Positions 9,552 to 33,138 of a DNA stretch of 34,667 nt are shown piece by piece; position 1 is the first letter of the stretch, and every line of letters begins with the position of its first letter. Origin of the DNA: an uncultured Bryobacterales bacterium (GTDB lineage Bacteria > Acidobacteriota > Terriglobia > Bryobacterales > Bryobacteraceae). The stretch is from contig CALMAV010000300.1 in the NCBI GenBank assembly GCA_937859895.1, positions 1-34,667 on the forward strand, read 5' to 3'. The position numbers were made by a program, and so were the translations under genes. Under the pieces are notes generated by a model. It had not been told where the DNA came from. It made no database searches and was given only the letters and a program-made list of their open reading frames with translations.

Positions 9552-9965
9552 ATGAAAATCAGACATCATGATTTGATCGTTCCGTTGAAGGATGAATGGT
9601 GGGAAGAGGCAGGAATGAGGAACTTCACTCGTACCTCCCCCTCATACATCGTTGACGCAAGAACACTCGGTAGTCAGAAAGTATGTTTGATCGCTCTTAC
9701 TGATGTTGAGCCGGCGCGCCGGTTACCGGGCATTCCGATTTTCAATAGAAGCAAGTCTGTTATTTGTATCCTGCAAGGATTCGTAAGCAGCTCAGCGATA
9801 CCGCCGATTAAACTTGTCAGGACAACGGGTCCGCATCCTTACAAGCTGGCAGACGGCGTGCATCGTTTCTATTGTTCATTGGCTGCGGGGTTCACACACA
9901 TTCCGGCTATTAACAAAGGGTATGACCGGGAACCGGAAACGATAAATGACGAAGCCTTCTGTTGA
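9552..9965 (+). CDS. Small ParB-like (N-terminal domain) protein
   Basis: 137 residues from the ATG at 9552 (a GTG one codon earlier is also possible). The segment YKLADGVHRFYCSLAAGFTH (about 96-115) resembles the dG.HR..A....G box of ParB/sulfiredoxin-like folds, and the preceding beta-rich part with IPPIKLVR fits such a domain. No HTH or dimerisation domain follows, so it is not a full partition protein. Its last 20 nt overlap the start of the broken second recombinase (ATG at 9946), which implies translational coupling in the ancestral unit. Exact function unknown; moderate confidence in the fold. Confidence 0.55.
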   Translation: MKIRHHDLIVPLKDEWWEEAGMRNFTRTSPSYIVDARTLGSQKVCLIALTDVEPARRLPGIPIFNRSKSVICILQGFVSSSAIPPIKLVRTTGPHPYKLADGVHRFYCSLAAGFTHIPAINKGYDREPETINDEAFC

Positions 9966-10420
9966 AGTCGAACTGATAATCCGGGACGGTCTCACTTTCC
10001 AGGTTCCACTCATTATCCGGACCAGCGGAGGATGTGCACCAAAGCGGTTCCTCGAGTTTTTCACCGTTCATATCCGCAATCCGAATACCCGTGCTGCGTA
10101 TGGCCGTGCTGCCGGTGCTTTTCTTCTCTGGTGCGAGGAGCACGGTTTGGCCGAGCTGCACCAGGTCCAGCCCATTCATGTCGCGGCCTATATCGAACAC
10201 TTAGGACGGAAGCACTCAGCACCTACGGTCAAGCAACATCTCGCCTGTTTGCGGATGCTCTTTGACTGGCTCGTCACCGGTCAGGTCATTGCCTTCAATC
10301 CAGCGCATGCCGTACGTGGCGCGCCACTCAGTTAGCAAGGGTGCTACGGCGGTGATTACTTCGGCGGAAGCTCGCGAGCTGCTGGACAGTATGGTGGTGA
10401 ACGATAACCGGATATGCTGA
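9946..10420 (+). pseudogene. Frameshifted N-terminal half of a second tyrosine recombinase
   Basis: From the ATG at 9946 the frame encodes a SAM-like core-binding domain (NTRAAYGRAAGAFLLWCEEH, about 46-65, and TVKQHLACLRMLFDWL), clearly related to the recombinase at 8535. It stops at 10335 right after AHAVRG. In a neighbouring frame the expected continuation is intact: RHSVSKGATAVITSAEAREL and then LDSMVV, ending at a TGA at 10418-10420. A loss of about 2 nt near 10318-10324 (GGCGCGCCAC) explains the shift. The whole catalytic domain is absent downstream, so the gene is both frameshifted and truncated. It overlaps the ParB-like gene by 20 nt. The fragment might still bind DNA as a core-binding peptide, but decay is the simpler reading. 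Confidence 0.75.
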
Positions 10421-15688: not shown

Positions 15689-16054
15689 TTATTTCCTTTC
15701 TGATGAGCAGTCGTTATCGCAGTGCAGAGTCGCCGGGCTAGCTTCGACGAAGAGTGCAAGTTGCCCATCCTCGATAGGGTCTTGATTGTGACGGGAGGAG
15801 AAGTCCCGCCATCGGGAGCTGTACTGATTCATAAGAGTGACGAGCTGCCGATGGGCTTGGTAGATCTCGTCGAGAGATCGGCAGTGCGGACAAGTTACAT
15901 CGACCGGGAGCGAGGACGATAAGGGATTGTAGGTAGGGTGAGTGGGGCATTTAGCGCGGAAGCTAACCGCTCCGAGTTTCAACATAAGATCATATAAGCG
16001 ATAGGAATTTTGTGGGCGAGGCGAAGCCTCCTTGACTCCTGGCCTTTTAAACAT
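15689..16054 (-). CDS. Hypothetical protein with Cys/His cluster, coupled to the relaxase
   Basis: 121 residues. Its ATG at 16054 overlaps the end of the relaxase gene by 8 nt, and AGGATTTAGG in the relaxase tail serves as the ribosome-binding site. KCPTHPTYNP (about 35-44) and DVTCPHCRSLDEIY (about 52-65) give Cys, His, Cys, His and Cys in a zinc-finger-like spacing. The middle is helical, and the C-terminus has two more cysteines (CDNDCSSERK). Tight coupling to the relaxase suggests an accessory DNA-binding or regulatory protein of transfer; this is inferred from context alone. Confidence 0.6.
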   Translation of the reverse strand: MFKRPGVKEASPRPQNSYRLYDLMLKLGAVSFRAKCPTHPTYNPLSSSLPVDVTCPHCRSLDEIYQAHRQLVTLMNQYSSRWRDFSSRHNQDPIEDGQLALFVEASPATLHCDNDCSSERK

Positions 16055-18809: not shown

Positions 18810-20789
18810 TTACTTCCTCTCTCCGGCGACTGGCTTGGCAGAGTTCTTGACGGGTGGCATGACGGCTTTGGGGGGAGTTGGCCAGACGGCTTGATTGTGG
18901 ATTGTGGAATTGTTGGCGATCACATGGAACGTAGGTGCGACAAAAGTTGAGTTGGTCACTACCGGCTCTGGTTCTGGCTCGACAGGATTTAGCGTCGGGA
19001 GTGGTTTTTTGACTACCTTGTTGCCCTTGCGCGGAACAAAAGCCGGGGCGGTTCCGATCTTTTGCATGATCGGCAGCTTGAATTTGACGACGAGGTTGCC
19101 GTATTTGAGGTAGCCTTCTCGGTCGCGTAGCCCGTGGAACTCAGCTGGTAAAAGCAGTTTCTCGATCACTCGCTCCGAACTGTAACTGTGTGCACCTTTC
19201 CCAGCGGCATGGGCCGGCCGAGTTTCTTTTACGCGCTCTCGTTCCACTTCTCCCACCATGTTCGAGACCCATTTCGACGCTTCATCTTCGGTCGTCCGCA
19301 TGAAGAACTTGGTAAAGGCTGCCGAGAAGATTGCCTCGGCTGTGTCGCCGTAGAGACTCTTAATTTGTGAGCGTCCCTGAAATCCCATCAAGGCTCGAAG
19401 GCTCTTGCGGCCTTCGGTTGCCATTGGCATTAGCTGCGGTAGTTTCTGAAACGTTTGCAGTTCATCGATCGCCATCAGCACGGGCGTAAGATCAGGGCGC
19501 TCGCCCTGCGAAAGCAGGTTAAGAATGAGCGAATCGAGCCATAACGATTGAATTGGACGGAGAGAATCTCGGGTCTTTTGAGTGTTGGTGACAAAAATCC
19601 AGCCCTTGCGGTGTTCGCACCAGTCGTTCAGAACGAAAGGCTTTTTCTCGGCACTTTCTTCGGGAAGCTGGCGAAGTGCGTGAGCAATCTGGGTGAGATG
19701 GCCGACCACAGCAGCCCGCTGATTGGGAGCGTTCTTGCCCATCATAGTCTCCAGTTCCGTTCCTTTCACTACGATGTCAATTAGGGGATCGGCATGCTCT
19801 AGCAGATGCGCCATCTCGTGAGAGTTCGGTTGAAAGTTGACGAGGATGTACCGCCAGATTAACTGGCTAGTGTAGGTGAAGAACCAGTTACGGTCTCCTG
19901 GCTCGCCTACGAAAAGGCTGGTGGCTTGAGCCATGGCATGGGTTCCGGCCAGCGCCGAATCGGACAAGTCGATCTCAGCGGAAGGGTTCCATGCCGGACA
20001 GCGAGCATCCATCGGATTCAGCACGACATCGCCGCGCTCTGCGTTGAAATAGCGGGAGATGAACTGCATGTGCGGGTCGCCGATAACCGCTGTTTCACCT
20101 CGTCTCGCAACCTCATCCAGGATCTGAAAGAAGAGGCTGGACTTACCTCCACCGGGATCGGCCATTGTGAGTATGTGGTTGTTCTCGTACTTCCGCTCGA
20201 TCCGAAGATACCTGCCGCTTTCGCCTTGCAGCCATTCGAGCGGGTTGCGTCGGTTCTCCAGCCGGAGAGGAAAACCATCGCCCTTTACTTGCCGATTAAA
20301 CTGCCATCGGGTTAGTAGATCCGGCCCTCGCAGCTTCACTCCGTCATGGGCTTTCTGCTTCCCCTTCTTCTTCAGGAATGTGCCGGCAACGAGCGACAAA
20401 AAGCACAAAGCGCCCCAAAGGCAGAGCGGAACCTCGGCAAACTGGAGCGGTGTCTTGCGCTCGTAGATCATCCATTGCAGCCAGTTTCCGAAGACTTGCG
20501 GCGTTGTGTAGGTGTATCGCAAACCCACGCCGTCCATGGTCTCGGGCATGGTGGCGAGGGTTGCGTCTTTGCCGTTCACCGTGATCACGCTGTAGCGTTT
20601 CGGCTTCTCTCCCCGACCGAAAAGGGAGAGCGATGGCATGTATTCGCAGGTCAGATAAGTAGCTAAGTACGAGCTCTGAATGGGTGCCAGAGTTTGATAC
20701 CAGAGGCTGAACGTCAGGGCTCCCGATAAGACGGCCAGGCCAGCCGTGAGCAGCAGACCGCCAGCTTTGGAAGGGAACACATTCGTCAT
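18810..20789 (-). CDS. trwB: Type IV coupling protein (TrwB/TraD/VirD4 family)
   Basis: 659 residues. Two N-terminal membrane helices (about 8-30 and 117-139) enclose a periplasmic loop and are followed by the cytoplasmic ATPase: HILTMADPGGGKSSLF (205-220) as Walker A, which has Asp-Pro-Gly-Gly in place of the common GTTGSGK, and VLMAIDELQTF as Walker B. GFQGRSQIKSLYG fits the conserved Q-containing motif of the family. A proline-rich, low-complexity tail of ~70 residues follows. It is the inner-membrane motor that joins the relaxosome to the mating channel and pumps DNA. The start is set by AAGGAGCAACCCG and a 4-bp ATGA overlap with the RHH gene. Confidence 0.93.
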   Translation of the reverse strand: MTNVFPSKAGGLLLTAGLAVLSGALTFSLWYQTLAPIQSSYLATYLTCEYMPSLSLFGRGEKPKRYSVITVNGKDATLATMPETMDGVGLRYTYTTPQVFGNWLQWMIYERKTPLQFAEVPLCLWGALCFLSLVAGTFLKKKGKQKAHDGVKLRGPDLLTRWQFNRQVKGDGFPLRLENRRNPLEWLQGESGRYLRIERKYENNHILTMADPGGGKSSLFFQILDEVARRGETAVIGDPHMQFISRYFNAERGDVVLNPMDARCPAWNPSAEIDLSDSALAGTHAMAQATSLFVGEPGDRNWFFTYTSQLIWRYILVNFQPNSHEMAHLLEHADPLIDIVVKGTELETMMGKNAPNQRAAVVGHLTQIAHALRQLPEESAEKKPFVLNDWCEHRKGWIFVTNTQKTRDSLRPIQSLWLDSLILNLLSQGERPDLTPVLMAIDELQTFQKLPQLMPMATEGRKSLRALMGFQGRSQIKSLYGDTAEAIFSAAFTKFFMRTTEDEASKWVSNMVGEVERERVKETRPAHAAGKGAHSYSSERVIEKLLLPAEFHGLRDREGYLKYGNLVVKFKLPIMQKIGTAPAFVPRKGNKVVKKPLPTLNPVEPEPEPVVTNSTFVAPTFHVIANNSTIHNQAVWPTPPKAVMPPVKNSAKPVAGERK

Positions 20790-21139
20790 CGGGTTGCTCC
20801 TTTTCGGGTGGAGAGACTGAGCCAGCGCTCCACAATTCCCTCAGCGGAGGCTCGGGCTCGGCCTTCGATCTCCTCCTGGAAACTGTCGGTCGAGATGTCC
20901 TCACCTGAGTGCCAGGCGACCATTGTGAGCCGGTTCATCTCGCTCCCAATTGCCTGGAGAACCAGTCGCCGCCGCTCTTCAGGAGACACTTGGAGTGACC
21001 GCAGAAGCACCTCGCGGCTCATCTCGCCCGCGCTTTTCCGCAGTTCAACCGCCCGTGTTTCAAGGGCTTCTTTGTCGCTCGGGCGCAGCCGAATGTTGAG
21101 TTGCTCGGTAAAAATCCGTCCATTTTGCGCAGTTTGCAT
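20786..21139 (-). CDS. RHH relaxosome accessory protein (TrwA-like by position)
   Basis: 117 residues from the ATG at 21139, which has AAGGAGTGTC upstream; a longer start at 21166 lacks such a site. RIFTEQLNIRLRPSDKEALE (about 8-27) gives the beta strand and first helix, and SREVLLRSL the second helix, of a ribbon-helix-helix DNA-binding fold, as in MobC/TrwA-type proteins. A helical C-terminal half probably makes tetramers or contacts the relaxase. It is the first gene after the putative oriT and overlaps the coupling-protein gene by 4 nt. The repeats at 21171-21227, just upstream of its start, are the obvious binding sites for oriT binding and autoregulation. Confidence 0.78.
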   Translation of the reverse strand: MQTAQNGRIFTEQLNIRLRPSDKEALETRAVELRKSAGEMSREVLLRSLQVSPEERRRLVLQAIGSEMNRLTMVAWHSGEDISTDSFQEEIEGRARASAEGIVERWLSLSTRKGATR

Positions 21140-21170
21140 GACACTCCTTTTCTGTTCTGAAATCAATGAG

Positions 21171-21227
21171 TTAGCGAAGGCTATACGCCGGATTAGCGAA
21201 GGCTATACACGGTATAGCCGGGGCTAA
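21171..21227. repeat. Three copies of a 16-bp repeat, probable accessory-protein sites
   Basis: TTAGCGAAGGCTATAC occurs exactly at 21171-21186 and 21193-21208 (22-bp period, about two helical turns). GTATAGCCGGGGCTAA at 21212-21227 is the same repeat inverted, matching at 13 of 16 positions. GGCTATAC/GTATAGCC also forms a hairpin with a 3-nt loop at 21201-21219. Location 32 nt before the RHH gene suggests operator and oriT-binding sites. Confidence 0.7.
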
Positions 21228-21244
21228 CCGAATGTTTGTAAATG

Positions 21245-21309
21245 CTAGACACCGAACGGGATAGCCCCGGCTATCCTGCAGATCCCTGGAAGGCGTCTAG
21301 TATTGTCTA
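21245..21309 (+). other. oriT: Origin of transfer with predicted nic site at 21308/21309
   Basis: An outer inverted repeat CTAGACACC (21245-21253) / GGCGTCTAG (21292-21300; 8 of 9 pairs) encloses the hairpin GGATAGCC-CC-GGCTATCC (21259-21276). Directly after the outer repeat comes TATTGTCT (21301-21308) and then A. The R388 nic region, as I recall it, is GTATTGTCT/A placed 8 nt beyond an inverted repeat, and both sequence and spacing match. Nicking would be on the plus strand between 21308 and 21309, with the 5' end leading to the right. The adjacent MobF relaxase, coupling protein and RHH gene support the call. Confidence 0.8.
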
Positions 21310-21430
21310 AGTTCAAAAGGTGCGAAGCGCCGTCTCCCCTGGCAGAAGAAACGCTCCGGAAACACGCAACAACTCACTTATCCGACACAGCTGAGTCGCT
21401 AATAGATTGCTGACTGTGCGCTGAACTAAT

Positions 21431-22825
21431 TCAAAGAGAAACTCCGAAGTCTCGCTGAACTTCAGGAGTTTCGGCGGCTAATTGCTGCGCTCTCTCTGGC
21501 TGAATGAATACTGCTTGCTGCGGTTGAGAAATCGTCCAGGGTTGGGAAAGTTCTCGTGTGACTGTTGCAGAATTTGCCTGTGACAGTTGCTGAATCGCAA
21601 CGTCAAGATACGCATAGCGACTCGCCGGATCTTCTGCGCTTTGACCCGGAGTTTCCATGCGGTGAGAGGACTGAACAGACTCCGAAATACCGGCGGAAAC
21701 CTCCTGTTTCTGTAGCGTCTCGGATACTCGAACCGAAGCATTCTCGTACTCATAACTCGGGGCGGTAACAACGTGAGTGATGAAAAGCCGAGCCTTTTCT
21801 GCTGACGAAAAACGACCGTCCTCCAGAGAAACGCCCTGGTCTAAAAACAAGCCGGCTGTCGCGTCGAAGCCCTCTCCATTTGTCCAGACCGTAGCCAAAA
21901 CTTCACCCGTCTGATCCGCTAAAACCTGCCGTGATCCAGCTAAATCCCAAGTCAAGATAGGCTGTTCGGATACCGGGTCTTGCACATATACCGGTTCTTG
22001 TATATATCCTTCTTCCTCGTAATCCAGCATCTGTTCTTTGGTCATAGTCATCCCAGCAGAGTCTACGTATTGTGCTGAGACCGATTCTGGATAGAGAACA
22101 TGGTCATACTTGGCAAGATACTTTTCTTTATCTTCGCCATACAAATCTTCATCCGCGCAAAAGTTTACTTCACTCTTTAGTTCACTGAGTACTTCGCGTT
22201 CTAATTGATCGAAGCTGATGTCAGCAGATCGGTATTCGGAAGGCTTAGCGTTATGCTCGGCAACACGTTCCAAGTAATGATCCCGGATAGCTTCTGACTC
22301 CTCAGGAGAGCGCAGTAAATCGCGCGTCCAACGCTCTGCCAAATAGTCATGCATTGATTGTCCGGGTTCGTTTCCAATGTGGTTATCCGGCTGCATCTCC
22401 ATAACCCAATCGACCTCTTGTTGATACGCTGCGTCCTTGTGAGCAAGCAACCTTTCTGCGGGAAGATCAATAATCTCAGGAACGGTATCAAGGCTAAGAC
22501 CACTGTCTTTCGCGTAATCCCGCAGGTACTGAGCCAGCCGATTTTGTTCAGCCAGAACGGCCATAAAACGCTCGTCTAGGACAGCATGTTCCTTGTTGCC
22601 GGACGCCAAATCGTGCGCCCAATAGTCTGTCAGTTCCATGCGCGACTCCTGCAAGTAGCCAGCCACATCCGCAATGAGCGCGGCTTCTCCCATCCGGTGA
22701 CTCTCAGCCATTTTTTGTTCCGTCACACGGGCCTCCACCTCCACTTGGTAAGAGATTTCCTCCGGTGCTGGAGCCTGAAGTTTGTCAGTAAACAAATTGC
22801 GAACACGCTCGGAAAATGATGGCAT
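21431..22825 (-). CDS. Large acidic hypothetical protein next to oriT
   Basis: 464 residues from the ATG at 22825, with AGGAGGTCGCTTG upstream and a TGATG overlap with the preceding gene. It is strongly acidic and Glu/Gln-rich, with a helical N-terminal two-thirds (LQESRMELTDYWAHDLASGN near 57) and a more beta-like patch DYEEEGYIQEPVYVQDPVSE (about 272-291), then WDLAGSRQVLAD and TVWTNGEGFDATAGL. It has a Gln/Ser-rich tail and no membrane segments. No family recognised. It closes the mating-channel operon and is the first gene to the right of the predicted nick, i.e. in the leading region, where early-acting anti-defence or establishment genes often sit. That role is inference. Confidence 0.65.
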   Translation of the reverse strand: MPSFSERVRNLFTDKLQAPAPEEISYQVEVEARVTEQKMAESHRMGEAALIADVAGYLQESRMELTDYWAHDLASGNKEHAVLDERFMAVLAEQNRLAQYLRDYAKDSGLSLDTVPEIIDLPAERLLAHKDAAYQQEVDWVMEMQPDNHIGNEPGQSMHDYLAERWTRDLLRSPEESEAIRDHYLERVAEHNAKPSEYRSADISFDQLEREVLSELKSEVNFCADEDLYGEDKEKYLAKYDHVLYPESVSAQYVDSAGMTMTKEQMLDYEEEGYIQEPVYVQDPVSEQPILTWDLAGSRQVLADQTGEVLATVWTNGEGFDATAGLFLDQGVSLEDGRFSSAEKARLFITHVVTAPSYEYENASVRVSETLQKQEVSAGISESVQSSHRMETPGQSAEDPASRYAYLDVAIQQLSQANSATVTRELSQPWTISQPQQAVFIQPERAQQLAAETPEVQRDFGVSL

Positions 22826-23103
22826 CAAGCGACCTCCTTTTGTGTTTTCGGAGTCTTCGAAGCCCTCGGTTTACGCTGACCAACCAGCGCAACTACTGCT
22901 GGCGCATTGCCTGTGCCACTGGCTTCCTTCCAGGCTTTCCAGTCTTTGTCGGCAAATAACAGCCGGACGGCCTGACCCACAACATAGTCTTCGCTGGAGT
23001 TAACTGCGGAAGCGTACAGCTTCAACTCTTCTAGTTCGTCAGCGCGAATTTTACACTTGAGATCGATAAGCGGTGTCTTGTCTTCGGGTTTAATGAGTGG
23101 CAT
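22825..23103 (-). CDS. Small RHH-like protein
   Basis: 92 residues from the ATG at 23103, with GGAAAG a few nt upstream. LIDLKCKIRADELEELKLYA (about 12-31) followed by SSEDYVVGQAVRLLF looks like a ribbon-helix-helix or related small helical fold: a beta strand, a helix, then the SxxDYVVxxAvR helix. The C-terminal third is basic (GQRKPRASKTPKTQK). It overlaps the TraF gene by 14 nt and the acidic gene by 1 nt, so it is part of the operon. It may be an operon regulator or DNA-binding accessory factor. Confidence 0.6.
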   Translation of the reverse strand: MPLIKPEDKTPLIDLKCKIRADELEELKLYASAVNSSEDYVVGQAVRLLFADKDWKAWKEASGTGNAPAVVALVGQRKPRASKTPKTQKEVA

Positions 23104-23623
23104 CAATCTTCCTTTCGGTAATGAGAAACGGGGTTACATGGTAGAGAACGGCCCGGCGTTCGACCGGTCCAAAGTAACGAGAGTCAAAGCTGTTCCGGTT
23201 GAATCGGCTAATGGCCCAGAGTCCCGTTGTGTACGTGCCGAATGGGTAATGAGGGAGTGGCTGACCGGAACTGGAGAGCGTTTTCGGTGCGGTGTTCGGC
23301 AGCAAGATTCCGTGCACTGAAAAGCCAGCAACCGAGAGCGTGACGGGAGCAGAAGGGGATGCCGAGACAAGTGGCTTGAGGATCGGCAGCACCTGCCCAG
23401 GACAGGAACCTTGCGGCAACTCAAGGCCGCGGTGTTGAGCATCCAACAGCACGGGAAGGGGCAAACAAAACGCAGCATACGGACCGTTAGGAGTCTCGCG
23501 GTATAGTCCGAGCGGCACCGAGTCTGACCAGTTCGGATGAAGGTGAGCGCGAGAGAGGAGAGGCGGAGCCACCGCAAAAGAACCGGCAAGCAAGAGCGTG
23601 ATCAGGGCAGGCTTGCGCTTCAC
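23090..23623 (-). CDS. traF: TraF-type signal peptidase (S26, pilin maturation)
   Basis: 177 residues with an N-terminal membrane anchor (about 5-23). NWSDSVPLGLY (31-41) holds the catalytic Ser35, and LPILKPLV (79-86) the general-base Lys83, close to the Ser/Lys positions of RP4 TraF. WAISRFNRNSFDSRYFGPV is the conserved C-terminal S26C block. In RP4 this peptidase trims and circularises the TrbC pilin; the same job is likely here since a TrbC homologue is in the operon. Start is GTG at 23623 with GAGGGTGG upstream and a 4-nt overlap with the TrbI gene. Confidence 0.88.
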   Translation of the reverse strand: MKRKPALITLLLAGSFAVAPPLLSRAHLHPNWSDSVPLGLYRETPNGPYAAFCLPLPVLLDAQHRGLELPQGSCPGQVLPILKPLVSASPSAPVTLSVAGFSVHGILLPNTAPKTLSSSGQPLPHYPFGTYTTGLWAISRFNRNSFDSRYFGPVERRAVLYHVTPFLITERKIDATH

Positions 23624-24984
23624 TTGGCCACCCTCATCGGTTCGTACGGACCAGGAAACACCATGTCCTTCTTCACGGAAACAGCAAAGATCTTGCCCGG
23701 TGGAATGTTCAAGGTTGGCTGGATGTTGAGGTTCCGCTGAGTTAACTGCTCGCCCAGTTGCGACGCTTGCGTACCCACTCCGGAGGCAATGACTTGTCCG
23801 GTAGATGGGTAAGACAACACGCTGCCGTTGGTGCGATTCTGCGAAATTTGCAGCCCTGCCGAGAGCAGCGAAGTGAGAGCAACGCCGGCAATCAATCGTT
23901 TGTAATGGTTGTCAACCTTGCCCGTCAGACCAGTCGAGCCATCGGCGTCGTGGGAAGGCATCCGGTCTAAATCGATGAAAGTTCCGTCAGGAAAGTAGAT
24001 AGCGGTCCAAACAATCTGGACGCGCTTCTGCGCGTAGCTGATGTTGGAGTTGTACTCCCCAACTAAGCGGGAACCAGCGGGAATCTCGACGTAGGTTTGG
24101 GTGGGCGAATCGAAGACATCGCGCACCACTTCGGCAACCAGATCGCCCGGCAAATCGGAGACGGCGGCGGCGGGAAGCGAGGCCGGAATGACTGTGCCGC
24201 GCTGCACAACCCAGCGGCTGATCGGAACACTGCGCGTGGTTTTTAGGTAGTCGTCGCCGGTCGGTTCGCCCTCAGCGAACTTACGCTTTTCTCCTTGCGC
24301 GTTCTGTGCTCGGTAGCCATCCTGGGTCTCGCCTGAGTTCGGGAAAAGCGAAGTCGAGGGAGCCGAAGCACTGCCGACGGCGGCTGCATTCTGCCGCAAA
24401 AGGGAATCGAGTTGCGGCAAAGGAGAAGTTGTTGGATCGGAAGAAGTAATCGTAGAGCGGCTCTGCTCGGTCGCTCCCGTGGGCGCTTGCATTGCTTGCT
24501 CCTCGCGCTCTTCTCGTCGGGAGCGGGCCTGTTCCTGACGACTCCGAGCGGTTTCAACGGGAGTTCCAGATGGGTACGAAGCAGGCTGATATTGCGGTGG
24601 ATAAGCTCCCGGGACAGGTGGGTACGGACCCGCATAGCCAGTTGGCGGAAGGCTTCCCGGTTGCCCTCCAGGTGTGCCGGGTATTCCTGGAGGGGTCGGA
24701 ACACCATTTGGCAGGGGAGATGGAGGAAGGGCTGGAATGATGGGTGCCGAGCCGGTCGAGGGTGTCTCGCGCTCTACTTGGCCGCGGTTGCTGGTCGCGG
24801 ATTCAGTCGAGACAGACTGTAGCTGCTGATGCTCCGTTTGCGCTCGTTTCCTTGCCGAGCGAACATGAAAACCATAAATGACAGAAAGAATTGCGACTAC
24901 CACAGCAGTGCCACCGATCCAGACCAGGCGTGGCGAAATAGGACTGGTTACGAAAGGGATTCGACCTTTCAAATCAATTGCCAT
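23620..24984 (-). CDS. trbI: Mating-channel protein TrbI / VirB10
   Basis: 454 residues from the ATG at 24984 (AGGAG 8 nt upstream; three further upstream codons are open). An N-terminal inner-membrane helix (about 18-37, RLVWIGGTAVVVAILSVIYG) is followed by a long Pro/Gly/Ser-rich linker (about 60-150), then the C-terminal beta-barrel domain: RWVVQRGTVIPASLP, AGSRLVGEYNSNISYAQKRV, WTAIYFPDGTFIDLDRMP and a VDNHYKRLIAGVALTSLLSA segment, hallmarks of TrbI/VirB10. It spans both membranes and gates the outer-membrane pore with TrbG. It overlaps trbG by 11 nt. Confidence 0.94.
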   Translation of the reverse strand: MAIDLKGRIPFVTSPISPRLVWIGGTAVVVAILSVIYGFHVRSARKRAQTEHQQLQSVSTESATSNRGQVERETPSTGSAPIIPALPPSPLPNGVPTPPGIPGTPGGQPGSLPPTGYAGPYPPVPGAYPPQYQPASYPSGTPVETARSRQEQARSRREEREEQAMQAPTGATEQSRSTITSSDPTTSPLPQLDSLLRQNAAAVGSASAPSTSLFPNSGETQDGYRAQNAQGEKRKFAEGEPTGDDYLKTTRSVPISRWVVQRGTVIPASLPAAAVSDLPGDLVAEVVRDVFDSPTQTYVEIPAGSRLVGEYNSNISYAQKRVQIVWTAIYFPDGTFIDLDRMPSHDADGSTGLTGKVDNHYKRLIAGVALTSLLSAGLQISQNRTNGSVLSYPSTGQVIASGVGTQASQLGEQLTQRNLNIQPTLNIPPGKIFAVSVKKDMVFPGPYEPMRVAK

Positions 24985-26023
24985 GGCTCGCACTCCTGGG
25001 GTAAGTCAGGCCCTCGTTGGTGATGCAAGCGCGTTGCTGATGCCGTCCGGCGCCAGCCAGGAGACAGGCTTTGGCGAATACCGCATCTACGATTAGTTCG
25101 TTGCCGTCCCAACGTCTGTTTGCAGGAATTGGGCCCCGCGCATCTTTCAACTGAACAACCGGTAAGCCCCGGTGCCGCGCTTCTTCCGAGAGCGAGATGT
25201 GCGTGTGGACGCCATCGTCAGCGATCTTTTCCGGTCGCAGGTAGGCTGCATCTTTGCCGTGCAGTTGAATGTGGTAGTTCCAGTTCCGCAGAGGCTTGAC
25301 AGTGCTTAACCGCCTTAGATTCTCTGCCGCACTTGCGGCTCGCTCCTCTTCTTCTTTCTTGGCTGCGACGGCCGCTTGTCGCTTGTCTTCTTCCTCTTGT
25401 GGGTAGCGGAAGGCAACACGCGCCATGTGATCGTGGCTGGTAGAAACCAGCCGAACATAGTAGGGGCGCTTGTTAGTGCCAACGGTGAGGGTCGTATCTA
25501 AACCTGCCTGTTGAGGTTTGAAAACGAGGTAGGTGAACTCGTTGGAGCCTGATCCGGATGTTCGGGAAGCGACTTCGAAGCGATGATCTCCCCAATCGAG
25601 AGCGTCATGAACGGGCGTTTCGCCAGCCTGTAAATCGAGTTCGCAGACCTGGAGAATCGCGCAGACAATAACGGGTACTCCTTGCCCGTACGTATAGAGA
25701 ACCCGGCCATCTGCAGCCTGTACCGGCGTCGCCCCACCGGTTAACCAGCCCTCGGAAAGAGAGAGGGCCATGCGAGCGGAAGGCGATAGCGGAATCTGAC
25801 GCTGCATTTCAATCGCATCAATGCTGTTCACCGTTCCTTGAATAGTGGGCGCTTGTTTACGGCGTGCCGAGGGCCGGGACGATTTCGCCGGAGAGACAGG
25901 CGATGATGGCGCATCGCTTTTTAGAACAGCCAATGCCGCAGCGTAATCAGCCGGTTTTGGGGGCGCCTGCTGTTGCGCAAATGCCATTGAGGTGGCAAGC
26001 AAAAGTCCGTGAACCTTGAGCAT
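24974..26023 (-). CDS. trbG: Mating-channel outer-membrane protein TrbG / VirB9
   Basis: 349 residues from the ATG at 26023, preceded by AATAGGAGGACTTTC; a longer frame to 26080 has no comparable site and would bury the signal peptide. MLKVHGLLLATSMAFA is a signal peptide. A Lys/Pro-rich region follows, then VLYTYGQGVPVIVCAILQVC and DLQAGETPVHDALDWGDHRF, typical of the VirB9/TrbG N-domain, and a C-terminal domain with NWNYHIQLHGKDAAYLRPEK and ADDGVHTHISLSEEARHRGL. It forms the outer-membrane ring with TrbI. A Glu/Ala-rich coiled stretch near 190-215 connects the domains. Confidence 0.9.
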   Translation of the reverse strand: MLKVHGLLLATSMAFAQQQAPPKPADYAAALAVLKSDAPSSPVSPAKSSRPSARRKQAPTIQGTVNSIDAIEMQRQIPLSPSARMALSLSEGWLTGGATPVQAADGRVLYTYGQGVPVIVCAILQVCELDLQAGETPVHDALDWGDHRFEVASRTSGSGSNEFTYLVFKPQQAGLDTTLTVGTNKRPYYVRLVSTSHDHMARVAFRYPQEEEDKRQAAVAAKKEEEERAASAAENLRRLSTVKPLRNWNYHIQLHGKDAAYLRPEKIADDGVHTHISLSEEARHRGLPVVQLKDARGPIPANRRWDGNELIVDAVFAKACLLAGAGRHQQRACITNEGLTYPRSASHGN

Positions 26024-26036
26024 AAAGAAAGTCCTC

Positions 26037-26726
26037 CTATTGAACGGGTTGAAACGATAACTCGGTACCCGAGATGCCAAGCGGGTTCTGCTGTCGGACA
26101 GCCTCGTTCTCCGACAGGTGCATGTCGTACACCAGGCGAGCCTGCCAAGTTTTAACCGAGATCACCTGGCCGGAGAGCGAGGTCGTGGTTTCTTCCCACC
26201 AGAGTCGAATGGTTCGCTTGCCCTCGCTGGTGTCGGATGTCTTATACCGAATGCTGACCAGTTCGCCCTTCTCGGCGCGCTTAAACGGATTGTTGGCGGC
26301 AAACCAATTGGCAATTGTTGAATTCGCCTGGCTTCCATCGGCCAGGAACATAAACGTGCGGTCCCAATCATTTGCTTGTGCGGTCCTATCGGTAGTGACG
26401 GTCCGCCAGGACTCCAGAAACCGGGTGAAGGATTGAATTTTGGTTTGATCCCAAGTTGCGTCATCCATGTCAACGGGCTTGGTAACACTGCCGCCGCTCA
26501 GCCGAGCGTTGGTTGATGGCGCGAGGTAGTTAATCGTGCGAGGCAGGGTGCCCTCGTAGACGAGTCCGCCGATGGCCAGCGCTAGCGCGAAAGCCTCAGC
26601 AAAGGCGATGCGTTGCCAATTCTTTTTGGCGGCAATTGGCTCGCTCCAAACCTCCGCAAATGCCCGTTTTGCGTTTCGATAACGAGTGTCTGAAGACACC
26701 TCCGGCACAGGTTCAGTCATTAGCAT
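26037..26726 (-). CDS. trbF: Mating-channel protein TrbF / VirB8
   Basis: 229 residues. A short cytoplasmic N-terminus with YRNAKRAFAEVWSEPIAAKK is followed by one membrane helix (about 40-58, RIAFAEAFALALAIGGLVYE) and a periplasmic VirB8-like domain: IQSFTRFLESWRTVTTDR, NWFAANNPFKRAEKGELVSI and TWQARLVYDMHLSENEAVRQ near the end, then QNPLGISGTEL. AGAGGAAAACAC before the ATG supports the start. It is the periplasmic assembly factor of the channel, placed between TrbL and TrbG as in RP4 and Ti trb operons. Confidence 0.85.
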   Translation of the reverse strand: MLMTEPVPEVSSDTRYRNAKRAFAEVWSEPIAAKKNWQRIAFAEAFALALAIGGLVYEGTLPRTINYLAPSTNARLSGGSVTKPVDMDDATWDQTKIQSFTRFLESWRTVTTDRTAQANDWDRTFMFLADGSQANSTIANWFAANNPFKRAEKGELVSIRYKTSDTSEGKRTIRLWWEETTTSLSGQVISVKTWQARLVYDMHLSENEAVRQQNPLGISGTELSFQPVQ

Positions 26727-26741
26727 GTGTTTTCCTCTGTT

Positions 26742-27920
26742 TTAGTGGTGGAAACCGTTAAAGGTCGGTGGTGAGGATTGCCCGCCACCGTGTGGCATCT
26801 GGCGAGCTGCGGAAGCCATCGTTTGTGCCATCTGTCCAGCGGCCCGACCTATAGAAACGCCTCCTCCGCCAGAAGAAGGAGCGCTCGGCTGGGGTGGAGT
26901 TGCGCCGGAAGCTCTTCCTGCACCAGCTGCTGCGCCGGAGGCCCCGCCCGAACCGGAAGCGATACCTGCGCCGCCAGCAGCCGCCCCGGCACCAGCTCCG
27001 ATCCCCGATGCAATCATGGCCGCTGAAATAGCAGCTCCAATCATGGGAGCGGTTAGTGCAATAGCGTCTCCATGCCCTAAATTCGGACCCGCACCAAAGA
27101 AGTTGCCGACTAGCGAACTTAAGTTCCACACAATCCCGGCGTAGAGCATTGCTCCGGCAGCAATCAGCCAGGCGGCACTTACTCCCGACTGTACCGGGGA
27201 GACCTTGGCTGCCTGTATCGCCCAATTGTTGGTAATAAGCGAAGCCGCACCGGTCAACATATAAAGCACCATCAACTTCGCCCCCGCTGAGAAACAGAAC
27301 GCAAAGTAGCGTTCGACGTAAGTAGTTGTATAGCGGGAGGAGCCAAAGGCCAGAAAGAAGTACCCTGCCCCAAGCGCTACATAGCTCTGAATCAGCGTCA
27401 CAACAAACTGATAAGTGATCACTAGAAAGGAGATCATCACAAGGAAAGCCGAAACCATCAGAGCGAGACCGGCTGGCACGTTACTCAGAATGCCGGTCGT
27501 CAGGCCCCGAGCCAGCAAGGTGCCGAAGATGATAAATCCCTGAAACAGAACCGCCGAGGGGCTGAGCGACTTTACGCCGCTGGCTGCCTTGCCTACGGTG
27601 ACGAACATACTCATGATGTCGTCCATCCACGCTTGCCCATGGATCAGCAAATCCAAGAAAATGCCGATTGTGAGCAGTTTGCCAGTGGTCGCCATCATCG
27701 TGGCGCGAAGGTCGCCTGAGTGATTCTTGAGTAAATCCCAACCGAAGGCACCCATTTCCAGTAGGGCTAAGGCACCAAACACTTCATTCGCATACGGCCC
27801 GACCGCCCCTGTCCACTGTCCGACCAGCTTTTGGTAAATGTCGACGAAGTCGCTTGGATCGGAGATTTGGATATTCGTTGGCGCGTATGGCCCGACTTGC
27901 GCCAGCAGCGGAAGCAGCAT
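26742..27920 (-). CDS. trbL: Mating-channel polytopic membrane protein TrbL / VirB6
   Basis: 392 residues from the ATG at 27920, which has GAGGTCTTGGTA upstream and overlaps the stop of the preceding gene (TAATG); upstream in-frame codons to 28043 lie inside that gene. About six hydrophobic helices lie between residues ~30 and 290 (for example VLFQGFIIFGTLLARGL and LALMVSAFLVMISFLVITYQ). The C-terminal ~90 residues are Gly/Ala/Ser-rich and low-complexity, common in TrbL proteins. It forms the inner-membrane passage of the channel. The repeat-like codons of the tail are high in GC. Confidence 0.88.
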   Translation of the reverse strand: MLLPLLAQVGPYAPTNIQISDPSDFVDIYQKLVGQWTGAVGPYANEVFGALALLEMGAFGWDLLKNHSGDLRATMMATTGKLLTIGIFLDLLIHGQAWMDDIMSMFVTVGKAASGVKSLSPSAVLFQGFIIFGTLLARGLTTGILSNVPAGLALMVSAFLVMISFLVITYQFVVTLIQSYVALGAGYFFLAFGSSRYTTTYVERYFAFCFSAGAKLMVLYMLTGAASLITNNWAIQAAKVSPVQSGVSAAWLIAAGAMLYAGIVWNLSSLVGNFFGAGPNLGHGDAIALTAPMIGAAISAAMIASGIGAGAGAAAGGAGIASGSGGASGAAAGAGRASGATPPQPSAPSSGGGGVSIGRAAGQMAQTMASAARQMPHGGGQSSPPTFNGFHH

Positions 27921-28243
27921 TACCAAGACCTCTTGTCGTACGTAACTGTGGGGGGTGGCTGATTTGATAGCGCTGCCTGGCAAACCGAACCTTCCGCGCT
28001 GGTAACCCAATTTGCCTGGGCTGTTTTGAGAATCGGAGCGCACTCGGCACTAATTTGTAATGCCATCTTGGGATGCTGCTGGAACCAAAATGCTAAACCC
28101 TGCGGAGTGAATGTTGAGATATCGCCGCTCCCGGCAGCCTCTACCTCGCGTACGATCTTTGAACTCTGGGCGTGGGGGTCGTAACAAGCTAGCGATCCTG
28201 AGATCGCAGGAATCAATATGGTCAGAGCTAGAGTTCTTCTCAT
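27920..28243 (-). CDS. TrbK/EexN-like exported protein, probable entry exclusion
   Basis: 107 residues. MRRTLALTILIPAISGSLAC is a signal peptide ending in a Cys (residue 20), a near-lipobox. The mature part has LAFWFQQHPKMALQISAECA (about 50-69) and WVTSAEGSVCQAA, a W..HP...A..I..C....W....G..CxxA pattern that I associate with EexN-type entry-exclusion lipoproteins. It sits exactly between TrbJ and TrbL, where RP4 trbK (entry exclusion) lies. It would block redundant transfer into cells already carrying the element. It ends in YDKRSW, nearly the same tail as TrbJ. The lipobox is imperfect (Ser at -3), so lipidation is uncertain. Confidence 0.65.
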   Translation of the reverse strand: MRRTLALTILIPAISGSLACYDPHAQSSKIVREVEAAGSGDISTFTPQGLAFWFQQHPKMALQISAECAPILKTAQANWVTSAEGSVCQAALSNQPPPTVTYDKRSW

Positions 28244-28956
28244 TACCAGGACCTCGCATCGTAGGTCAGCTTCGGCATAGTAAAACTGCTCTGCCCGGCT
28301 TGATCGGCGGCTTGGGCATTGGCTTGTTGTGCGGCAACAGCACCTTTTGCGGTCATGTCCGCAATCATCAACTGCCGTAACTTTTGGAGTTGCGCTACCT
28401 CCTCGGTCCCGATTACATTGCCGAGCTGCAAGGCTTGATCCTGGCCGGCAGGCGTTTGCAGCATGGCCTGAATCTTTGCCATGAAGTTCCGCTCATTGTT
28501 GAGCAGGTTCGCTTGCATTCCGGCTGTGTTGAGTGAACCGTGAATAGTGTTGAGGGTGGAGGTCGACCAGTTGCCATAGGCTGCTGCGTAGGAAGTGAGC
28601 CTGGGATCGAAGGAGGGGTACATTCTTTGAAACTGGGAATCCATCTGAGCCATGCCACCTGCTAAGCCCTGTGATTGCTGCAGGACATTGGCTAAGGTTG
28701 CCAAATCAGAGGCGATTGACGTGGTGGGATGCGTCACCAGTTGCTGTCCTTCTCGGACCATCATCTGCGCCATCTGCACCGACTGGAGTGCGGTTTGCGC
28801 TTGTTTCAAGTACGACTGGCAAAGCTGCGCATAATTGAGCAACTGCGTCCATTCGGTTGCATTACCAATTCCGAATAAATGAGCGTTCGCCCGGTGAGCC
28901 GGAATAATCAAAAGCCCGGCACAGACCGTGAAAGCGATCCATCCTCGTTTACGCAT
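28243..28956 (-). CDS. trbJ: Mating-channel protein TrbJ / VirB5
   Basis: 237 residues. A signal peptide (MRKRGWIAFTVCAGLLIIPA, then HRANA) precedes a long helical protein: EWTQLLNYAQLCQSYLKQAQ (35-54), IASDLATLANVLQQSQGLAG and NLLNNERNFMAKIQAMLQTP with the QALQLGNVIGTEEVAQLQKL block (about 177-196), typical of TrbJ. It is a periplasmic or pilus-tip component. AAGGAAGAAC before the ATG fits the start; it overlaps trbE by 8 nt and the next gene by TAATG. The C-terminus, TYDARSW, recurs as TYDKRSW in the downstream neighbour. Confidence 0.88.
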   Translation of the reverse strand: MRKRGWIAFTVCAGLLIIPAHRANAHLFGIGNATEWTQLLNYAQLCQSYLKQAQTALQSVQMAQMMVREGQQLVTHPTTSIASDLATLANVLQQSQGLAGGMAQMDSQFQRMYPSFDPRLTSYAAAYGNWSTSTLNTIHGSLNTAGMQANLLNNERNFMAKIQAMLQTPAGQDQALQLGNVIGTEEVAQLQKLRQLMIADMTAKGAVAAQQANAQAADQAGQSSFTMPKLTYDARSW

Positions 28957-31456
28957 ACGTGAGTTCTTCCTTGTTTTCTTTCGTGTTAGTCAACGCATCA
29001 AACTCATCGGCCCAATCCGGCAAACCCCGCATCCGGAGCCATGGGCCCGGCCACTTGGCGCCGTACCTGACAATTAGCTGATCGACAAGCGCCCGGTCGC
29101 TGTCGTTTGAAGCCGCGAGGAACGAGAGAGCAACCTGCCCGAGTTCAAGCGAGATCATGCGCTTGCCGTCCGGCGACGCGACGTAGTACTCACTCTTTGG
29201 AACAGCATGGGCAATCAGTTCCCGGTCCCAATCGTTCATGCCGAGAGATTGATAATCGCCAGCACCTTCAAGCAAGGCTTGCGGGGAAGGCAGGCAGATT
29301 TTGGTAAAACATTGCTGCAGGACAGCGTTCTTCAAGGGCGAGGCGAGAACCTTCGATAGCTCCTGCACAATGAGCCACACTGCAGTATTGAGCTTTCCGC
29401 ATTCAAATAGGTAGTTCTCAAACGCGGCTGCCGCCATGGGATGCTCCAATGATTCGCGGAACTCATCGACCGCCATCAGTGTTGGAACGGCAGAGGATAG
29501 CCGTGTACTGATACGTCCAAATAGGTAGAAGAGCACCCCGTTCATCGTCTTTTTGTCGAGACGGTAAAGTTCATCCATTTCGAAGACACAAAACCGGCTC
29601 ATCGAAATGGTGTCGGTGGATCCATCAAGCAGACCACCCAAGTAGAACTGGAGACCGGCTTGGACTTCCTTCGAAGGCACGGCCATGTGGAAACTCGTTA
29701 GTGAGCGATCACCGCTGTAGGCACTCATCCGACGCAATGTTTCACCAATATCGTTCCGCATGTCGGGCGTCACCCGGACATCGTTGAGGGTAAGTAGTAA
29801 CTCTAGAATCTGGGCACCTCGGTCTCGATCACTCGGCGTTGCCAGTTCGTGCAAGGGGCACACCTTGGTTGTGACACTGTTGGGACTTAGATCGTAGAAG
29901 TCGCCGCCCATGGCCCTACAAAGTGTGTACAGCGTTCGCTTCTTGTCAAAGCAAAAGACCTGAGCGTTGGTATATCGAAAGAACTGACTGATGGCAAGAG
30001 CTTGCAGGGTTGTCTTGCCAGCCCGGGTGGGCCCCACAATCAACGTATGCCCTACGTCTCCCACATACGGATTGAACCGGTAGGGTGTCCCCCCGCTAGT
30101 GACTCCATACAGCAGCGGAGGAGAGTGGGGAGCAAAGTACGGAGATGGATTGTACTGATGACCGCGGAACGGAGCCGACAGCGGCATCATGTGAGAGGCA
30201 TTAAAGGTGTTTAGGAGAAAGGTCCGCGGGTCTTTGTGCTGCTGGCCCGGCAGTGAACCGAGCCAAGCTGCCACAACGTTTGTCGTTTCGATCCGGCATC
30301 CGAACCCACAGTGATACTTCACGACCCGGATCAGCGCCTCGCTTGCTTCTTTCATCCGCTCGGGATCTGAATCCATCAGGATCAGCTTGGCGTGAAACTT
30401 CACGGCAACCTCTTTGCCGTGTTCGACTGCGCTCGCCACAGTCTGGGCTTCCAGTTGCATTTTGAGTGCGTATGGATCGTCGCTGCTGCCGTCGTCTACC
30501 GCGCCCGGCATAGCCTGCTTGACGATGCTCTTTTTCTTAAACTTCCACTTACTCTTGTTGACCTCGTGCTTGTCTTTTCCTGCCTGTTCATCCAGCAGTT
30601 CAGCCTGCTGGGTATAGCGAAAGTCGTAGGAAACCGAATCTAATTCGCGTAACATGCCGGCGTAGCCGTTCTCGGGAAACGAATCAATTGCAATGACGGC
30701 AATGTACTTGCCAGGTGATAACTCGCTGTCAGGATCGCCCAGGTGTGGCCTGGCCCCGCCCGTGAGATCGTCGGTTGCCAAGTACTGGTTCAAGAACGCA
30801 GGGGTTCCGGGGACCGTAAATAGATGGTCCTCAGAGTTAATACATTGCCGAAGGAAGCGGAGTAGATCGTCGTACACATACGTCACCCCGAGCCGACCAT
30901 GCTCATGGGAGGTCAAGCGCTCGACTTGCGAAAACGTATTGGACAGCAGTCCATGGATTTCGGCAACCCGCTTTTCAAACAGCGCCAGCGACTTCTCATT
31001 AGCGGAGTTCGTGCCTTTCTCTTTGGAGGAAAACAACCACGATGAGGCCTTCGCTCCCATTCGCAGGCCTGGCTCATAGACAACGGTCAGAAAGTATCGG
31101 CTGCCCCGCGTTGCCGCCTCGCCTTGCATGTTGAAACGAGCTCGGCGTTCTTGCTCAATCAGGTACGAAACAGGATCGGGCCATTCTGAAGGGGCAGCAT
31201 ACTCGCGCCGTTCGCCCCGGATCAAATGAGCTTCAATGGTCCAGCCGGACCCAAGCCGCAGGCGACGCTCCAGGCGATTAGCGACCTGCCAGCAATCGGC
31301 TAGTGGCATCGCATCCATGTCGGGACTGACGTATTCCCAGCCAGCAATGAATCGTCCAGTACTGGTCAGAACCACGCCAGGCGCCACGAGTGCAAAATAG
31401 TCCAGCAGGTCGGAGAAGCCTTTGGCGTCGGTCTGAAACTCAGATGCAATGAGCAT
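28949..31456 (-). CDS. trbE: Mating-channel ATPase TrbE / VirB4
   Basis: 835 residues, typical length. After an N-terminal CagE/TrbE-type domain (about 1-430) comes the ATPase domain with Walker A LIVGPTRAGKTTL (472-484), QVFCFDKKRTLYTLCRAMGG, LMAVDEFRESLEHP as Walker B region, and KICLPSPQALLEGAGDYQSL. No membrane helix is obvious, in line with peripheral association. It powers pilus assembly and substrate transfer. GGAGGAGTCGTTA precedes the ATG at 31456, which overlaps the stop of trbD by 1 nt. Confidence 0.95.
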   Translation of the reverse strand: MLIASEFQTDAKGFSDLLDYFALVAPGVVLTSTGRFIAGWEYVSPDMDAMPLADCWQVANRLERRLRLGSGWTIEAHLIRGERREYAAPSEWPDPVSYLIEQERRARFNMQGEAATRGSRYFLTVVYEPGLRMGAKASSWLFSSKEKGTNSANEKSLALFEKRVAEIHGLLSNTFSQVERLTSHEHGRLGVTYVYDDLLRFLRQCINSEDHLFTVPGTPAFLNQYLATDDLTGGARPHLGDPDSELSPGKYIAVIAIDSFPENGYAGMLRELDSVSYDFRYTQQAELLDEQAGKDKHEVNKSKWKFKKKSIVKQAMPGAVDDGSSDDPYALKMQLEAQTVASAVEHGKEVAVKFHAKLILMDSDPERMKEASEALIRVVKYHCGFGCRIETTNVVAAWLGSLPGQQHKDPRTFLLNTFNASHMMPLSAPFRGHQYNPSPYFAPHSPPLLYGVTSGGTPYRFNPYVGDVGHTLIVGPTRAGKTTLQALAISQFFRYTNAQVFCFDKKRTLYTLCRAMGGDFYDLSPNSVTTKVCPLHELATPSDRDRGAQILELLLTLNDVRVTPDMRNDIGETLRRMSAYSGDRSLTSFHMAVPSKEVQAGLQFYLGGLLDGSTDTISMSRFCVFEMDELYRLDKKTMNGVLFYLFGRISTRLSSAVPTLMAVDEFRESLEHPMAAAAFENYLFECGKLNTAVWLIVQELSKVLASPLKNAVLQQCFTKICLPSPQALLEGAGDYQSLGMNDWDRELIAHAVPKSEYYVASPDGKRMISLELGQVALSFLAASNDSDRALVDQLIVRYGAKWPGPWLRMRGLPDWADEFDALTNTKENKEELTYA

Positions 31457-31761
31457 TAACGACTCCTCCAGCGAACGGCCCGAATTGGCTTGGCAGTCCA
31501 GAAGCCCTTCTTATACCGGCGGGCTTCGTCATAGACATTCAGAAAAATAGGGTCTTGTTTCGCCAGCTCCTGTAAGCCTTGGCGGAGCAGAAGAAACAGA
31601 ACGATAGAGCCTAAAATTCCCCACCACGTCAGCAAACTGTAGCCGGTGATCAAACACAGGAAGAATGCAACTGCCAGCGCCTTCGGTTCGCATCCCAGAA
31701 GCAAATGCGGACGATTTGCACTCTCATGGAAGCGGGAGCAATATACCTCTGGGATGTCCAT
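31456..31761 (-). CDS. trbD: Mating-channel protein TrbD / VirB3
   Basis: 101 residues. YCSRFHESANRPHLLLGCEP (about 7-26) is the conserved N-terminal block of TrbD (RPxLxxGxE). It is followed by two adjacent membrane helices (about 28-60) and DPIFLNVYDEARRYKKGFW, all characteristic of the VirB3/TrbD family. A very strong GGGAGGAGGAAAGG site lies before the ATG. It works with TrbE and TrbC at the inner membrane in pilus assembly. Confidence 0.88.
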   Translation of the reverse strand: MDIPEVYCSRFHESANRPHLLLGCEPKALAVAFFLCLITGYSLLTWWGILGSIVLFLLLRQGLQELAKQDPIFLNVYDEARRYKKGFWTAKPIRAVRWRSR

Positions 31762-31783
31762 GTGTTCCCTTTCCTCCTCCCTG

Positions 31784-32107
31784 TTAGATCAAGGCCCCAG
31801 CAAGGCCAGGAAACAAAGAGAGTGTGCCCGTAGCGCCTACGACGAATCCGACAGCAAACAGAACAGCCACAATACCTTTCAAGCTGGCCGTCATCTCGTG
31901 ATGATTAAACGCCCAAACGCAGCCTCCGGCAACGATCGCGATAATGGACACCGCGTACGCCATTGGGCCGGACACCTCACCGGAGAGAGCTACCATCACT
32001 TGCGTTGAAGCTAAGCGACCGCCACCGACCGCAAACGCGGGCATGTTGGCGATGAGAAATACTGTAGTCATTCCCACAGCTTTGCGAATCTGTCTATGCA
32101 TAGACAT
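31784..32107 (-). CDS. trbC: Conjugative pilin TrbC / VirB2
   Basis: 107 residues from the ATG at 32107 (AAGGAGATC upstream; an ATG two codons later is an alternative). A signal peptide with VFLIANMPAFA is followed by two hydrophobic helices (about 47-66 and 78-98) separated by a short polar turn WAFNHHEMTASLKG, the normal pilin hairpin. It ends LFPGLAGALI, with little C-terminal extension compared with RP4 TrbC. TraF in the same operon suggests C-terminal trimming and perhaps circularisation. Confidence 0.83.
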   Translation of the reverse strand: MSMHRQIRKAVGMTTVFLIANMPAFAVGGGRLASTQVMVALSGEVSGPMAYAVSIIAIVAGGCVWAFNHHEMTASLKGIVAVLFAVGFVVGATGTLSLFPGLAGALI

Positions 32108-32133
32108 CAGGAAAAGATCTCCTTCCAAAACCG

Positions 32134-33138
32134 TTATAAGTACTCCAGCGCGTAGTCTCCGCCTGGATTCAAGCCCCGAACCCAGCAGACCTCCCGCACC
32201 TTTCTACCAACCGGGAGAGAATCCTCCCCATCAATAAAAACCACTAAGTTCACCGAGGCCGCAATGCGCTCGCGGACTGAAGCTTCGTGACCGCCTACCA
32301 GCGTTTCTAACTTGCGGAGTCCGCTGGCCGCGTCGTTGGCGTGAATGGTTGCCAACCCGCCGGAGTGTCCGGTATTCCAGGCACTCAGCAATACTCGGGC
32401 AGGTTCCTCTTCCCGCACTTCCCCAATGACTAAACGTTTCGGGATCAGCCGTAAACTGGCCACCAGCAAATCGGCTTGTGAAATCGCCGCGGTCGCTAGC
32501 AGTGCAATGTGATTTGGAAGTCCACATTGCAGCTCCGGGGTGTCTTCAATCATCACCACCCTATCTTGCGGCGTCACGAGCGACCACTCGGCAATGATGC
32601 TGTTGGCCAAGCTAGTTTTTCCTGACCCAGTAGGTCCGACCAGCAGCATATTGAACCGGTACCGGCAAGCCAGCTTAAGCGCTTGCGCGTGATTACAACC
32701 CGTAACTCGTTCCGCAAAATCAGACTTATGCCGCTTTTGGTTCAGTGGGTCCGCTCCATCAGTGAAGATGCCGGAAGCCTCAAGCGCATCAATCGAATAA
32801 ATCTGCTTCTGCCGGGTACGGATGGCAAATACCGGATTCTCTACAATCGGGGCAATTAGCCCTTCGATACGGTCGCCGGTTAACGGGAAAATCGTTTCGA
32901 GGACTGGATTCTCGTGATTAAGCGATCGCTGCCGAATCGTGGCGATCCCGTTCAGCATGAGCTCGGCCATGTTGCAGTCAAGCTGGCTCTCGCATTCCCA
33001 GCCCCGACCGAGCCGGTTTACCCAAAGGCTGCCATCGCCGTTACCGACCACATCCAGGGTGTCCGAAGCGGCGAGCAAAGGTAGCAGCGGAGCAGCCAGT
33101 CCGTGTAGGGTCGTCAATTGTCTCGCGGCTTGGCTCAT
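32134..33138 (-). CDS. trbB: Mating-channel ATPase TrbB / VirB11
   Basis: 334 residues. An N-terminal domain (1-150) with FPLTGDRIEGLIAPIVENPV (84-103) and FAIRTRQKQIYSIDAL is followed by the RecA-like ATPase: Walker A NMLLVGPTGSGKTSLANS (163-180), the Asp box VVMIEDTPELQC, Walker B with LVIGEVREEEPARVLLSAWN, and the His box TGHSGGLATIHANDA. It is the hexameric secretion ATPase of the P-type channel. It overlaps the small gene upstream by ATGA and is the first recognised trb gene of the operon. Confidence 0.95.
   Translation of the reverse strand: MSQAARQLTTLHGLAAPLLPLLAASDTLDVVGNGDGSLWVNRLGRGWECESQLDCNMAELMLNGIATIRQRSLNHENPVLETIFPLTGDRIEGLIAPIVENPVFAIRTRQKQIYSIDALEASGIFTDGADPLNQKRHKSDFAERVTGCNHAQALKLACRYRFNMLLVGPTGSGKTSLANSIIAEWSLVTPQDRVVMIEDTPELQCGLPNHIALLATAAISQADLLVASLRLIPKRLVIGEVREEEPARVLLSAWNTGHSGGLATIHANDAASGLRKLETLVGGHEASVRERIAASVNLVVFIDGEDSLPVGRKVREVCWVRGLNPGGDYALEYL

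Follow-up and report, generated by a model that had tools for sequence, protein, structure and literature searches.

The locus poses a simple question: where would a MobF-type conjugative element of an acidobacterium be nicked for transfer, and what marks the place? The window, by which we mean the whole stretch of DNA analysed (34,667 nt), is one entire contig (C300) of a fragmented 4.38-Mb genome in 616 contigs. Its minus strand carries T4SS genes, two genes without a family whose products have 93 and 465 aa, a 264-bp gap, an RHH-like gene and the genes for a TrwB/TraD-type coupling protein and a MobF relaxase (Table 1). The 465-aa gene (21431-22828), which ends beside the candidate oriT, has no Pfam or NCBIfam match. 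The adjacent relaxase was recognised by Pfam TrwC and NCBIfam MobF, and in alignment it keeps the two catalytic tyrosines (Y15 and Y27, aligned with those of TrwC) and the three histidines (H157, H172 and H174) of the MOBF family. Its nearest plasmid relaxases are 35-39% identical and all from Acidobacteriota. PLSDB contained no plasmid nearly identical to the element, a scan of genome contigs with the relaxase as query gave only a distant fragment, and a terminal overlap of contig C300 was looked for and not found. The window also carries a tyrosine recombinase (8535-9491), a second integrase N-terminal fragment (9946-10335) and a resolvase (178-870), so the element could be integrative.

Table 1. 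Features of the oriT region and its flanking transfer genes, in window coordinates
Feature	Position	Strand	Basis or remark
MobF (TrwC) relaxase-helicase, 919 aa	16047..18806	-	PF08751 4.3e-61; NF041492
TrwB/TraD-type coupling protein	18810..20789	-	PF10412 6.8e-52
Probable RHH accessory protein, TrwA-like position	20786..21139	-	ATG at 21139, ORF open from 21166
First TAGCN4GCTA repeat	21172..21183		motif count
Second TAGCN4GCTA repeat	21194..21205		motif count
Third TAGCN4GCTA repeat	21215..21226		motif count
Distal arm CTAGACACC of long-loop repeat	21245..21253	+	not conserved in L173
Fourth TAGCN4GCTA repeat, core of inner hairpin 21259-21276	21262..21273		presumed RHH operator
Compact pre-nic hairpin CCT-GGA-AGG	21285..21293	+	R1 alignment; 3 bp; counterpart of CCCX-NNN-X'GGG
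Proximal arm GGCGTCTAG of long-loop repeat	21292..21300	+	conserved in L173
nic core GTATTGTCT/A	21300..21309	+	R388-identical; predicted cut 21308^21309
TGTC within nic core	21304-21307	+	core common to Terriglobia relatives
Mini-hairpin GGTGC-GAA-GCGCC, GNA triloop	21319..21331	+	compensatory changes in relatives; identical in L173
T4SS genes VirB10, B9, B8, B6, B4, B3, B2, B11	23620..33138	-	Pfam

Sequence comparison indicates that the gap is very probably the oriT of a MobF/VirB-type conjugative element, one that diverges within an oriT family spread across the Terriglobia. An earlier note had recognised in GTATTGTCT/A the nic core of R388 (NC_028464, L005), an IncW plasmid of the MOBF family with the relaxase TrwC, and the match is exact: all ten letters are identical to R388 16165-16174 (+), with an A at 21309 as the purine that follows the MOBF core. 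GTATTGTCTA at 21300-21309 (+) is the sole match in the window at up to one mismatch, where 0.71 would be expected at that tolerance. The 4.38-Mb host genome holds three exact matches, which corresponds to about 2e-4 expected in the 264-bp gap; the other two (C439 and C526) are without a GNA hairpin 3' of TGTC and were taken as chance.

The strand of nic and the gene order also agree with R388, as the note had claimed. Both loci have the order RHH-TrwB-TrwC, both place the nic strand opposite these genes (trwABC is on the minus strand in R388), and in both an inverted repeat ends 8 nt before the cut. The two differ in other respects. In R388 nic follows CGCACC-GAAA-GGTGCG, a compact IR2 of 6 bp with a 4-nt loop, whereas the repeat of the window has a long loop; the T4SS genes of R388 are found past trwC, those of the window on the side of the oriT; and R388 and pIE321 lack the GNA mini-hairpin that follows nic in the window. 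The relaxase is 27-28% identical to R388 TrwC, and several TrwC residues reported to contact nic are apparently changed in the alignment (S89->G, Q159->H), so recognition of nic may differ from that in R388. On the 3' side of nic, studies of R388 found that positions 27-32 can vary freely (PMC4176350).

Relatives of the relaxase provide a view of the site beyond R388. A relaxase match at 1e-80 was found in 88 of 399 genomes of the class Terriglobia, and the DNA 5' of the relaxase was compared at about 70 loci, on the strand opposite the genes. A single plan was shared by 65 loci: a hairpin CCCX-NNN-X'GGG, the linker [GA]TG[GA][AC]G, TGTC, about 10 nt, and a hairpin with a GNA loop, such as CGGTGC-GNA-GCACCG. 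A few loci have TATC or TGTA for TGTC, and four have a longer linker. The distance from this candidate oriT to the RHH-like gene that follows is usually 40-200 bp, and in a few loci it is larger. Across the relatives the closing pair of the first hairpin alternates between T-A, A-T, G-C and C-G, and four of the six pairs of the second hairpin change on both sides. Pairing of the two hairpins holds in 96.5% of cells and falls to 34-56% when the partners are slid by 1-3 columns.

A covariance model, R1, was built from 57 Terriglobia oriTs without the window. Its top match in the window (filters off) is 21277-21338 (+), at 11.3 bits and E 0.026, followed by one of 6.0 bits; in absolute terms this is a weak score, and it lacks significance when the whole genome is considered. 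The alignment brings GTC and GGTGC-GAA-GCGCC into register, 3 bases being inserted ahead of GTC, and this supports the nic call independently of R388. Because the fit to R1 is weak, it is the combination of R388 identity, position and register that carries the argument. The window has TGTC in the fixed register with the GNA mini-hairpin: its T lies 15 nt before a 5-bp stem, which is equivalent to the 14 nt most often seen in relatives whose stem has 6 bp. In place of the 4-bp CCCX-NNN-X'GGG and the linker [GA]TG[GA][AC]G it has the 3-bp CCT-GGA-AGG and a different linker, 3 nt longer, which makes it a divergent relative rather than a typical member. The claim of an oriT is supported by R388 identity, strand and gene order and, above all, by register with the downstream hairpin of some 65 relatives, and TGTCT/A is the best candidate for nic on these comparisons.

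R1 also recovers oriTs next to relaxases in genomes outside its training set (e.g. G313, G333, G360 and G366). In the phylum it gave 55 matches in 23 of 297 genomes, and three genomes with matches lie outside the class. Four genomes (G351, G369, G348 and G333) have 4-7 oriT matches, more than the relaxases listed for them, two candidates having been scored per genome; some of the surplus oriTs may be without a relaxase and mobilised in trans. In the close relatives G208, G212 and G166, pieces of relaxase or TrwB are on contigs that end before any readable oriT. The conserved 15-mer GGCGTCTAGTATTGT has 11 matches in viral contigs, none followed by a GCGAAGC hairpin, and these were taken as chance; a longer gapped pattern and a TrwB search found nothing in the viral contigs.

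Plasmids extend the comparison. The Acidobacteriota MobF plasmids pACPOL1, pACIX903, pACIX904 and pACIX905, whose relaxases are 36-39% identical to that of the window, resemble it in having an RHH-like gene adjoining the oriT and, 14-15 nt past the T of TGTC, a GNA mini-hairpin. They carry CCCX-NNN-X'GGG followed by GGAG or GACG and TGTC, where the window has GTCTAGTATTGTC, and their repeats before the RHH gene differ from those of the window. The element occurs outside Acidobacteriota too: in Sphingopyxis pMC4 (CGATGC-GTA-GCATCG) and in Alcaligenes pNY11312-NR (CCCCC-GAA-GGGGG) a GNA hairpin follows the presumed nic at about 16-20 nt on its 3' side; unlike the window, these two have the core GGTGT rather than TTGTC and other repeats before nic. 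A search of the open PMC literature found no oriT described from Acidobacteriota, and the window appears by sequence to be a divergent member of an apparently undescribed, Acidobacteriota-wide variant of the MobF oriT.

The closest oriT to that of the window, GAACCTAGGAGGCGTCTAGTATTGTGTTAAGTACAAAAGGTGCGAAGCGCCGTCTCCCCTGG, is found in the MAG itself, on a divergent second element with mob/T4SS genes (L173; G000:C227:1-4872), whose RHH protein is 40% identical to that of the window and whose TrwB is 65% identical at the N-terminus. Between the two, conservation is 90% over the block that starts at AGGCGTCTAGTATTGT and takes in the mini-hairpin, and the compact hairpin is CCT-AGG-AGG in the second element. 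Absence of the nic match from close relatives, which the note had named as a refutation, is partly what was found here: the core of L173 is GTATTGTGT, with G at R388 position 24, although other MOBF plasmids are known to have a G there (Carballeira et al. 2014, PMC4176350). The MobF plasmids of Pseudomonas and Alcaligenes that were compared have the core GTATGGTGT, which makes GTATTGTGT plausible. At the position of the 465-aa gene, L173 has a shorter ORF (902-1699, 265 aa).

This second element also bears on what the relaxase would read 5' of the cut. The note had placed nic exactly 8 nt after an inverted repeat, and both repeat and spacing are real: CTAGACACC and GGCGTCTAG form 8 of 9 pairs around a 38-nt loop, followed by exactly 8 nt (TATTGTCT) to the cut. 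Extended to 13-nt arms (21241-21253 and 21292-21304), the repeat has 11 of 13 pairs, with P = 0.0045 for the fixed 13-mer and 0.016 for any 13-mer near nic. That the relaxase reads this long-loop repeat as its IR2, with the inner hairpin making a double-hairpin subtype of oriT, is improbable, though it has the strongest case of the alternatives: the repeat is above chance, its spacing is that of R388, and the single strand folds in that form. The extension continues through TATT, however, so another choice of repeat boundary would give a spacing other than 8 nt. In L173 no stretch matches the distal arm at more than 7 of 13 positions (P 0.98); L173 keeps the proximal arm and nic without the distal arm, the inner hairpin or the loop, and the other relatives have the compact 4-bp hairpin. 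With the distal arm missing from the closest oriT, the spacing is not a conserved feature, and the long-loop repeat is not supported as the defining hairpin for the relaxase. Some MOBF nic sites have no inverted repeat (PMC4176350).

The inner hairpin, the other half of that proposal, can be explained differently. A perfect hairpin, GGATAGCC-CC-GGCTATCC, does exist in the loop, as the note had said, but it is a copy of a motif, TAGCN4GCTA, and not a new oriT feature. Four copies lie between the RHH gene and nic, where 0.33 would be expected in the window and no shuffle reaches four; none is found elsewhere in the window outside the 264-bp gap. This confinement suggests that the repeats are probably the operator of the RHH protein. 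L173 lacks them and carries CGTAATACC repeats in their place, and repeated hexamers (P <= 0.05) occupy the matching place in 21 of 65 relatives, where about three would be expected. The hexamers vary by lineage (GTAGAC, GGAACC, GTGCAC and others), as would be expected of lineage-specific RHH operators. The protein itself, the product of 20786-21166, has no Pfam match, a weak profile similarity to NikA (E 0.056) and a predicted structure of moderate quality with a NikA- and Arc-like core; the E-value of that resemblance is not significant, and Foldseek gave no significant match to the model. Gene order, the NikA profile and the structure model together make it a likely RHH protein.

The element that defines the variant is instead one the note had missed, the GNA mini-hairpin at 21319-21331. 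The DNA d(GCGAAGC) forms an unusually stable mini-hairpin. In the window the hairpin would be carried at the 5' end of the transferred strand, and its counterparts covary among the relatives, which suggests that it acts as folded single-stranded DNA. We put at about even the chance that in the MobF oriT of Acidobacteriota the relaxosome substrate includes, as a functional element, a GNA mini-hairpin, covarying and extra-stable, which stands about 10 nt 3' of nic and serves on the transferred 5' end for second recognition, recircularisation or protection; it is absent from R388/IncW, and scattered proteobacterial MobF plasmids appear to share it. The window has two GNA hairpins of such form in its 34.7 kb, the other being GAGGCGAAGCCTC at 16018-16030, just past the stop codon of the relaxase. 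The hairpin after nic might alternatively be a terminator for incoming T4SS transcripts, since the minus strand has TTTT after it, where leftward transcripts would arrive. This is very unlikely, and we rejected it: a terminator scan does not call the hairpin, the T-run is absent at that place in the relatives, Rfam has no match to the hairpin, and the distance to TGTC is nearly fixed (mode 14).

A short core can mislead, and it must be asked whether GTATTGTCTA arose by chance or belongs to a repeat array, with the true nic elsewhere in the gap. The plasmid pACPOL1 (L006) has an exact TATTGTCTA at 7384, among GTAGAC/GTCTAC repeats and 46 bp from its consensus TGTC, which shows that the R388 core alone is not decisive; GTCTA also occurs twice in the window, at a spacing of 10 bp. 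We think such a coincidence slightly less likely again than a terminator, because the + strand of the gap has a single TGTC, which stands in the register with the mini-hairpin that the relatives conserve, and the R388-type block is kept in L173. Least likely of all is a decayed, non-functional oriT, for which divergence from the class consensus might speak, but the relaxase, coupling protein and T4SS genes are intact and the same divergent block is kept in the second element.

The reading of the gap as an oriT is therefore well supported, by the core, strand and order shared with R388, the 65 or so relatives and their covariation, the R1 match, the block kept at 90% in L173, the TAGCN4GCTA repeats and the catalytic residues. 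Against it stand the score of 11.3 bits, the 3-bp compact hairpin, the 3 inserted bases, GTATTGTGT rather than GTATTGTCT in L173 and the apparently changed TrwC contacts.

If the gap is an oriT, the MobF relaxase would recognise about 21285-21308 of the + strand, immediately before the cut, nick after TATTGTCT (21308^21309) and remain on the 5' end. The strand would depart 5' to 3' rightwards, so that the T4SS side would enter first and RHH-trwB-trwC last, an order read from the strand of nic, on which the window and R388 agree. The RHH protein may bind the four TAGCN4GCTA repeats that separate nic from the RHH gene and shape the relaxosome, and it probably represses its own operon. On the 5' end of the single strand GGTGC-GAA-GCGCC, about 10 nt 3' of the cut, could fold, and it may serve the relaxase as a second feature for recognition or registration, or protect the strand end.

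With candidate oriTs found across the phylum by the consensus and the R1 model, it becomes testable whether acidobacterial elements transfer, and whether they mobilise others or are mobilised by them. The covarying hairpin after nic raises the question of what MobF relaxases read 3' of nic.
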